53,050 bases of DNA from Bacteroidota bacterium (lineage in GTDB: Bacteria > Bacteroidota > Bacteroidia > M30B66): positions 1 through 53,050 of the forward strand of contig JAIXYK010000036.1 in the NCBI GenBank assembly GCA_027490225.1, given 5' to 3'. Below the pieces are notes generated by a model, which was not told the origin of the DNA, did no database searches, and saw only the letters and a list, made by a program, of their open reading frames with translations. Positions 50,664 through 52,613 of this stretch are shown here, piece after piece. The position numbers and the translations under genes are program-made. The number at the start of each line of letters is the position of its first letter. Within the stretch, counting starts at the first letter, position 1.

Positions 50664-52277
50664 TTATTGCTCCTGCACTACTTTTCCTTTAGGATATTTA
50701 ACTGAATAACTCAATTTAATTTTTTGAGATTCATTTGGTTTTATTTTAAAATTCCACAACAATTTTCCATATTCTTCCGAGTACTCTGCTCCTTGTTTAT
50801 CTAAGAGCTCCACTTCTATTTCAGTTCTTTTTGAAATTGGTATCTGGTCTAAAACTTCAATATCTATTGCAGTGGATTTGTTATTTCTGATAATAATTTC
50901 ATACACGTAAGTATCTTTCTGTGCATCGGTGAGTATTTTCTTAGAAGCTTTATCTACAATCTTGTTTCTCCTCACCACAATTCTTTCATCTCTTCCTAAA
51001 GAAATCAACAAAGTATCGCTAGAAACTTGAGGATTCAAAAGGGTTTGACCGATATACATATCATCAAAGAATATGTTTGCTTGCCCAGCTAAAAGATTAT
51101 ACTTTCCATAATCGGTAATTTTAGCAAGTAAAAATGCACTTTGGTCTAACTTCGGAACTGCGTGGTATTTATAAGTTGCTGGAACATTATATGTTTGAAT
51201 TGCACAAATATGTTCTTTCCCATCCGATGGAATATTTTGTTTTATATCAATTTCAAATTCCACATTAATATCATTTTCGTTCACATTTACTTGATAATTT
51301 GAAGCTTCATCACCCCATTTAAAATCCTTTTCTGCGATAGCTTTTTTTTCCATTTGCATCATATTCATTGCAGGAGCATTTGATAAATAAGCATCATTTC
51401 TAACTGCATACGTTATGTAATCTATAAACTTAGGGCTCATAATCGGCCTGTTGTTGTTTTGACTTGGATTTGCGCTCGAAATCGTAATTCTTACATCTTT
51501 CCAATCATAACCAGTTTTTTGGTAAATCTTTGCCTTGTAAAAAATATTTACAGGTTGTGAAATATTTGCCACCTTAATGTCATACATGGGTGCCCAACTA
51601 GCTTGTGTAACTAAATATGAAGGTCTAATTGTAATTACACCACCCGTTTCAGAAGAAAAGCTCAATACAATCTCCTTTGCTGGGTCAATCTTCTTTACAC
51701 CCATTTCATTCAATTGTTGTTCAAACTTATTTCTTTTCTCTGCAAGCTTATTTTCTCTAATCGTTAAATCGAAAAGTTTCTTTTTCAAATCCATTAACCT
51801 ACTTCTGTAAAAATCCGACAAAGTAATTAAGTCAGCTGGTTTCATGCCTTCTTTCTCACTTCCCAACTTTATGTTGTTCTGAATCAATTCTGACTCTCCC
51901 GTGTAAACCAGTTTCTGTTCATTAATCCATTGAAGATCCAAATCAAATGTTTTTAAGGAATCTTTTAATCTGTCCGATTTAGGATCTTTCGGTGCAGCAT
52001 TTTCCGCTAAAAAATAATTAATTCGTGTTGTAGCAGAAAGTAACGTAGCGCTTCCTTTTACCCCAACTTGCAAGCTATTATCTACCATAAATGTAGAAAT
52101 GTTAGGAATTACCACATCCGAATTTCCCTTTGGAATGGTTACAGTTAGCACCCTCGTTTCTTTTGCCTGATTGCGGTAAACCGTAACTTCTGTAATTTTT
52201 GAAGTTGTTGGAATTTCATCTGCCGAAGCAAAAAAACCACAACACAATAACTGAATCAATACACTAATTCTTCTCAT
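50664..52277 (-). CDS. MuiA-type DUF4139/DUF4140 protein
   Basis: The 537-residue protein has a signal peptide (about 1-19, ending FFASA) and an N-terminal DUF4140 segment (about 25-125) starting ITEVTVYRNQAKETRV. A coiled coil follows (about 150-210), then a C-terminal DUF4139 domain (about 215-537) with RPSYLVTQASWAPMYDIKVA and IYQKTGYDWKDVRITISSANP. This family is annotated as mucoidy inhibitor MuiA, named from an Azotobacter vinelandii locus affecting alginate production; its biochemical role in Bacteroidota is not known. The product is exported to the periplasm or surface. It has its own terminator and appears to be a single-gene unit. Confidence 0.88.
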   Translation of the reverse strand: MRRISVLIQLLCCGFFASADEIPTTSKITEVTVYRNQAKETRVLTVTIPKGNSDVVIPNISTFMVDNSLQVGVKGSATLLSATTRINYFLAENAAPKDPKSDRLKDSLKTFDLDLQWINEQKLVYTGESELIQNNIKLGSEKEGMKPADLITLSDFYRSRLMDLKKKLFDLTIRENKLAEKRNKFEQQLNEMGVKKIDPAKEIVLSFSSETGGVITIRPSYLVTQASWAPMYDIKVANISQPVNIFYKAKIYQKTGYDWKDVRITISSANPSQNNNRPIMSPKFIDYITYAVRNDAYLSNAPAMNMMQMEKKAIAEKDFKWGDEASNYQVNVNENDINVEFEIDIKQNIPSDGKEHICAIQTYNVPATYKYHAVPKLDQSAFLLAKITDYGKYNLLAGQANIFFDDMYIGQTLLNPQVSSDTLLISLGRDERIVVRRNKIVDKASKKILTDAQKDTYVYEIIIRNNKSTAIDIEVLDQIPISKRTEIEVELLDKQGAEYSEEYGKLLWNFKIKPNESQKIKLSYSVKYPKGKVVQEQ

Positions 52278-52410
52278 AATTTGATTGTTTTAAATTGAAC
52301 TAATTTGGAGTGGCACAAACCCATTTGTTGCTAAACCACGGCTGCCGTTTATGTAAGCAAACTAAAAAAGTTCATAAAGTAACAAATTAGTTTTTAGCTA
52401 TGCTATTTTT
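52278..52410. other. Intergenic stretch before the structured element
   Basis: No gene is visible. The stretch upstream of the DUF4139 start is AT-rich and lacks a clean TAnnTTTG element. The GC-richer piece with ACCACGGCTGCCGTTTATG (about 52335-52353) looks out of place in its surroundings but is too short to assign. Confidence 0.35.
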
Positions 52411-52533
52411 GGGCGCCTGCCGCTACTCAAAATCCTTCAAAATTGTATGCTATCGTATAGCGGCACCCCGCTTTTCGCTGCAATCTTTTTTTCGTTCCTC
52501 AAAAAAGGATTTTCGCTGCAATCGGTGGCGCTT
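52411..52533. other. Structured intergenic element (three-stem fold, candidate repeat or ncRNA)
   Basis: The outer stem pairs GGGCGCC (52411-52417) with GGCGCTT (52527-52533), two of the seven pairs being G-T. A second stem pairs TGCCGCTA (52418-52425) perfectly with TAGCGGCA (52458-52465). A third hairpin pairs ATCTTTTTTT (about 52483-52492) with AAAAAAGGAT (52501-52510). Two direct copies of TTTTCGCTGCAATC (52472-52485, 52510-52523) flank that hairpin. GC content is well above the surroundings. I recall similar TTTCGCTGCAATC/CTTTTTTTCGTTCCTC elements recurring between genes in Bacteroidota, but this is from memory and only one copy is in the window. Strand and function are unknown. Confidence 0.6.
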
Positions 52534-52560
52534 AACATCCTCCTAAATTTTAAAATAACC

Positions 52561-52585
52561 AAAAAAGGCGCCCTTGTGAGGCGCC
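52561..52585 (-). terminator. Terminator of the right-edge secreted protein gene
   Basis: GGCGCC (52567-52572) and GGCGCC (52580-52585) pair around a 7-base loop, followed on the minus strand by six T (52566-52561). It lies 28 bases past the stop at 52614. Confidence 0.82.
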
Positions 52586-52613
52586 CGCATGGTTAGGTTA
52601 ATTGAATTAAATT

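Follow-up and report, generated by a model that had tools for sequence, protein, structure and literature searches.

A larger three-way-junction unit and repeat-like behavior of the Flavo-1 family in Bacteroidota

The window, which is the whole analyzed stretch of 53,050 nucleotides from a Bacteroidota bacterium (contig JAIXYK010000036.1), contains a 123-base intergenic element (52411-52533) for which a sequence-only reading had described three nested stems, two direct repeats, and the layout of a three-way junction. The question raised by this locus is whether the layout is real and, if so, whether the element is a structured RNA or a mobile DNA repeat. The element lies between two minus-strand genes; one, running from 52614 to the end of the window, encodes a protein with a type IX secretion sorting domain, and the other (50664-52277) a DUF4140/DUF4139 protein. 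No reading frame of at least 60 codons spans it, in agreement with the sequence-only reading.

The window element and the family Flavo-1

An Rfam scan returned Flavo-1 (RF01705) as the sole match at this spot. The match runs along the minus strand from 52534 to 52460 with an E value of 1.1e-8, and its score of 52.9 bits exceeds the cmscan gathering threshold of 42 bits. The Flavo-1 model has the same P2 core as the window copy, and the hairpin that Flavo-1 requires, in which a pair of direct repeats base-pair on either side of internal loops, is found in this copy. Judged by its sequence, the window element is a copy of the known family Flavo-1. The sequence-only reading had proposed a comparison with Rfam, and the comparison thus leads to an already named family, whose reading strand is the minus strand rather than the plus strand on which the stems had been described. 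Flavo-1 was defined computationally in 2010 by Weinberg et al., who considered it probably an RNA and non-cis-regulatory (PMC2864571), and it has been listed as one of the most abundant sRNA families in bacteria (PMC9029176). Despite the 2010 definition, no function of Flavo-1 was found in the literature searched, which is consistent with the statement in the sequence-only reading that the function of such elements is unsettled (PMC2864571, PMC9723704). The Rfam model of Flavo-1 is one hairpin of 76 nt, classed as an sRNA, whereas the data presented here describe a larger unit with repeat-like behavior. P1, a hypervariable P3, and a defined 3' end are newly added here to the one-arm model of Rfam (Table 1).

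Table 1. Features of the Flavo-1 copy in the window and of its immediate surroundings
Feature	Position	Strand	Basis
Complete Flavo-1 unit, P1 - P2 - P3 - P1' - CCAAAAA	52406..52531	-	Ends set by comparison with other copies
RF01705 Flavo-1 match, P2 and immediate flanks only	52460..52534	-	cmscan
P1, 5' arm, minus-strand GCGCC	52527..52531	-	Pairs with 52413-52417; pairing kept in other copies
P1', 3' arm, minus-strand GGCGC	52413..52417	-	Complement of a copy's own P1 present in most other copies
P2, core hairpin of Flavo-1, with two purine-rich 3x3 internal loops	52466..52526	-	Rfam structure; central 2 bp covary
Direct repeat GATTGCAGCGAAAA, first in element order, 5' side of P2	52510..52523	-	Sequence
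Direct repeat GATTGCAGCGAAAA, second in element order, 3' side of P2	52472..52485	-	Sequence
P3, hypervariable hairpin with 8-bp perfect stem TGCCGCTA/TAGCGGCA and 32-nt loop	52418..52465	-	Sequence
3' end CCAAAAA, conserved terminal motif	52406..52412	-	CC(A/T)AA after P1' in most copies
Intrinsic terminator of the upstream sorting-domain gene, separate from the element	52566..52586	-	Sequence

All three stems and both direct repeats described earlier are present in the sequence. The 8-bp perfect stem adjacent to the outer stem was confirmed, with its arms at 52418-52425 and 52458-52465, and the exact 14-nt direct repeats read TTTTCGCTGCAATC on the plus strand (52472-52485 and 52510-52523). 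The outer stem, which had been given as 7 bp, also exists (52411-52417 with 52527-52533); however, the length conserved in other copies is 5 bp, the inner GCGCC/GGCGC on the plus strand (52413-52417 with 52527-52531), and the outermost two of the seven read as G-T when taken from the plus strand and as A-C when taken from the minus strand. The element also extends slightly beyond 52411-52533, to position 52406. The stem of the nearby terminator (52566-52586) repeats AGGCGCCC and could in principle pair with positions 52411-52418 of the element (GGGCGCCT).

Architecture and covariation of the complete unit

The architecture was derived from about 200 compared copies and consists of P1 (5 bp, strongly covarying), the P2 core, P3, and a 3' CCAAA. 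The P1 arms of 52 copies were located via anchors independent of complementarity; of the two variable P1 pairs, one is formed in 48 and the other in 49 of these copies, compared with maxima of 36 and 32 in 2,000 shuffles. The two central pairs of P2 also covary (GC/GC, GT/AC, AC/GT, and AT/AT). The shuffles leave shared ancestry in place, but several different combinations are found in distant phyla. An independent set of 114 copies was examined for the complement of each copy's own P1 followed by two pyrimidines, which was present within 130 nt in 93 copies, whereas the P1 of other copies gave 3.5%. Most of the remaining copies have the P1 complement with a different next base or a longer P3. 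Located between P2 and P1', P3 comes as 79 distinct sequences in this set, and in 56 of the 65 cases of testable length its fold is better than that of 95% of shuffles. Since this covariation extends across copies, the three-way junction read from the window is the conserved form of the family and not a peculiarity of one copy.

Folding energy alone would not settle the reality of the fold, because its departure from shuffles is modest (z of -1.7 for the plus strand, -2.4 for the minus strand, and -2.4 with DNA parameters) and the predicted minimum-energy folds contain P1 and the remainder only in parts. A chance fold in GC-richer intergenic DNA, to which energies only 1.7 to 2.4 standard deviations below shuffles would be no obstacle, is practically ruled out because the same layout belongs to an established family, with a significant family match and compensatory changes in all three stems. 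The sequence-only reading had named a single copy with neither covariation nor a transcript as the mark of such a fold, and about 30 copies with covarying stems were found instead.

The unit also varies in form. In g25, a related genus of the same class, a shorter form without a clear P3 predominates, and a form lacking P3 is also present in the window's own genome. In Aquimarina (L252, L274, L286, L291, L302, L304, L313, L317, and L322), the hairpin tips CGACCTTAGGAG and CGACGATAGGAG are reused among the copies of one genome, on different arms and in P2 as well as P3, as though the hairpins were modules that can be exchanged. Spirochaete copies (L315, L334, L337, and L367; L259, L337, and L349) carry lineage-specific tails directly after the element, like AAAATTCCGAATCGGAGTAAAATTATAAAT, and AAAAGTAAACGCCGATGCC, which perhaps represent an extended element.

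Copy number, spread, and genomic context

The window's own genome contains about 30 clear Flavo-1 copies, of which the window copy is the only full match to the 123 bases. Flavo-1 was found in 18 of 40 relatives and in 58 of 59 g25 genomes, with 0 to at least 54 copies per g25 genome, the g25 counts resting on a limited number of candidates scored in each. Named genomes scanned with a sequence pattern yielded at least 120 stretches from many Bacteroidota (Flavobacterium, Aquimarina, Kaistella, Epilithonimonas, and others) and also from metagenome-assembled genomes of Spirochaetota. The recurrence in Bacteroidota stated in the sequence-only reading is thus borne out, and the distribution reaches beyond that phylum. 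A search of plasmid and phage collections with one Flavo-1 variant gave zero matches, although low-complexity filtering may hide some, and Flavo-1 is rare on viral contigs, with three carrying it.

Whole units are found at unrelated sites. In the own genome, five copies share the entire unit of about 165 bp, including one particular long P3, and their flanks are unrelated and their ends sharp, which is the pattern expected of a non-autonomous repeat. Presence and absence also vary at a fixed position: in one orthologous spacer of g25, bounded by the same two genes, Flavo-1 is present in 11 of 30 genomes (9 by pattern and 2 by Rfam), and some of the spacers in element-free genomes are only 152 to 280 bp long. 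No base-for-base empty site was obtained from such orthologous presence/absence spacers, where the intergenic DNA is too diverged or rearranged, and a rearrangement of the left flank affects the 95% identical pair G003 and G008. Flavo-1 lacks the terminal inverted repeats of a classical MITE, since its ends read TGCC... and ...CCAAA, with only P1 complementary, and no target-site duplication was evident. Some copies occupy orthologous places across species, where the arms of their hairpins may have been exchanged for others that still pair; this suggests that individual copies are under selection.

The orientation of copies is independent of the flanking genes, which counts against a cis-acting mRNA element. 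With genes taken as the longest ORF, 24 copies between tandem genes are sense and 29 antisense, and a further 25 copies lie between convergent genes and 14 between divergent genes.

A probable dispersed repeat and its alternatives

Between the two options of the sequence-only reading, a mobile repeat and a structured RNA, the evidence leans to the former. On the present analysis, Flavo-1 is probably, though by no means certainly, a non-autonomous dispersed DNA repeat that is copied in trans and behaves like REPIN, BOX, and ERIC. The negative results on empty sites, target-site duplication, and neighboring genes count against it, as do the signs of selection on individual copies. We infer mobility as the cause of the dispersal, with a single-stranded intermediate and a trans-acting enzyme. 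The multiplied unit would be the three-way junction in full, beginning just before P1 and ending with the 3' CCAAA. A strand exposed as single-stranded DNA, for which the replication fork is the most plausible place, would fold into the junction, and an enzyme supplied in trans would recognize the unit by its ends and its conserved P2 core and insert a copy into AT-rich intergenic DNA. If pairing rather than sequence is what is recognized, as proposed here, the hairpin arms may drift yet remain paired. ERIC and BOX are structured intergenic bacterial repeats of about 100 to 170 bp with a patchy copy number and are not known to have a transposase. Flavo-1 is similar to them by description in all of these respects but differs in having a conserved three-way junction and replaceable hairpins.

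A considerably less probable explanation is a multicopy structured RNA, in keeping with the sRNA type assigned by Rfam, the copies of which would be transcribed and act, for example, via a protein bound to P2. Rfam membership, the very strong covariation, and the retention of pairing at orthologous sites while arm sequences change are all consistent with an RNA. The preference for G-T over A-C at the central pairs of P2 (13 versus 2) is as well; this preference points to folding of the Rfam strand as a single strand, which may be DNA or RNA. The apical arms of P2 are uninformative in this respect because of a conserved C-A position there. In the P3 arms, however, G-T pairs (1.7%; A-C, 1.0%) are scarcer than in the tRNA acceptor stems encoded in the DNA of the same genomes (9.7% G-T). 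The only transcriptome paper discussing Flavo-1 in the literature searched, an RNA sequencing study of F. psychrophilum, points both ways, in that several Flavo-1 matches coincide with 5' transcribed regions, whereas the matches are indifferently sense or antisense to transcripts, with no consistent strand, and many lie outside transcribed regions (PMC9723704). The missing strand coupling to neighboring genes and the wide range of copy number among congeners, down to zero, also argue against an RNA function, and no promoter-like site was found near the window copy in a scan with the sigma-70 consensus alone. The pair counts and the indifference to gene strand together lean toward single-stranded DNA without proving it.

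The orientation of copies relative to replication bears on another explanation, an unlikely one, in which Flavo-1 would be a DNA element serving the host in replication or chromosome structure, selected and oriented so that a fork, nucleoid, or repair protein reads the folded strand. In near-complete g25 genomes, Flavo-1 orientation splits by replichore. With strands assigned by GC skew at third codon positions, 107 of 141 copies in six g25 genomes are on the C-rich strand, with the same sign in all six; one-sided p values for single genomes are 0.0004 to 0.03 in five of the six, and a pooled p value overstates the bias because copies shared between genomes are nonindependent. In four of the six, the orientation of rRNA and ribosomal-protein (S10) genes indicates that the copies on the C-rich strand are head-on to replication. 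This bias and the rarity of Flavo-1 on plasmids and phages count in favor of the dispersed repeat and would also fit a host function, as would the maintenance of its structure by compensatory changes. Against both explanations, the window's own genome shows the opposite sign by GC skew at fourfold sites, with 22 of 30 copies on the G-rich strand (two-sided p of about 0.02), and the bias in G017 (14 of 19 copies) is nonsignificant, so a single replication rule fails. The patchy copy number, which falls to zero in one congeneric genome, also argues against a host function. The replication-strand bias is thus supported in one genus and is unexplained as a general rule.

If Flavo-1 is a dispersed repeat, Y1 transposases would be the obvious candidates for the trans-acting enzyme. 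Short dispersed intergenic hairpins in many copies, non-autonomous in their movement, are also features of REP and REPIN sequences with their RAYTs, and a REP sequence moved by a Y1 (RAYT/TnpA-REP) transposase would account for the dispersal of Flavo-1; Bacteroidetes transposases of subclass 2.6 have been reported with atypical structures (PMC6006769). However, Flavo-1 is not a short tagged hairpin and does not routinely flank Y1 genes. A PF01797 search in nine genomes found 13 Y1 genes, and most of these have simple palindromes of their own, distinct from Flavo-1, in their flanks; Flavo-1 lies near only two of them (in G000 and G008), on one side only, with weak subclass-2.6-like matches included. 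Three genomes with Flavo-1, G017 (27 copies), G023 (9 copies), and G006 (7 copies), have no PF01797 match. Mobilization by a Y1 enzyme was therefore rejected as very improbable, even though the one Y1 gene of the own genome lies close to a Flavo-1 copy. That gene (L064; G000:C62:89062-89406) is surrounded by its own REP, CCCCTTCGGGGT, at about 300 bp from the Flavo-1 copy. The Y1 genes in these Bacteroidota (L061-L073) each have distinct simple palindromes and together present a rich REP set.

Clustering of the ORFs around about 100 copies revealed no recurrent neighbor gene beyond orthologous loci, and no autonomous form, in which the hairpins would enclose a gene, was found in the DNA examined. 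Integron attC sites are single-strand hairpins with a variable apical structure, a likeness that Flavo-1 shares. An attC identity was rejected, as most copies end in CCAAA and have no shared AAC/GTT pair; the GTTAAGC beside the window copy is absent from others, and Flavo-1 copies are solitary rather than placed between cassettes.

The interpretation as a dispersed DNA repeat can be carried further, to a tentative proposal that Flavo-1 represents a new class of mobile structured DNA, misfiled as an sRNA, in which an enzyme not yet associated with Flavo-1 would act at the replication fork to move a junction with interchangeable hairpins in single-stranded form, with spread through Bacteroidota and Spirochaetota. 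Should Flavo-1 prove to be such a dispersed repeat of DNA, sRNA annotations in Bacteroidota would in many cases be misleading, and a transposition or replication-linked system would be awaiting its enzyme. P1, P3, and CCAAA, together with the unit ends and the strand bias, provide handles for a better covariance model, for junctions compared between strains, and for a pull-down probe.
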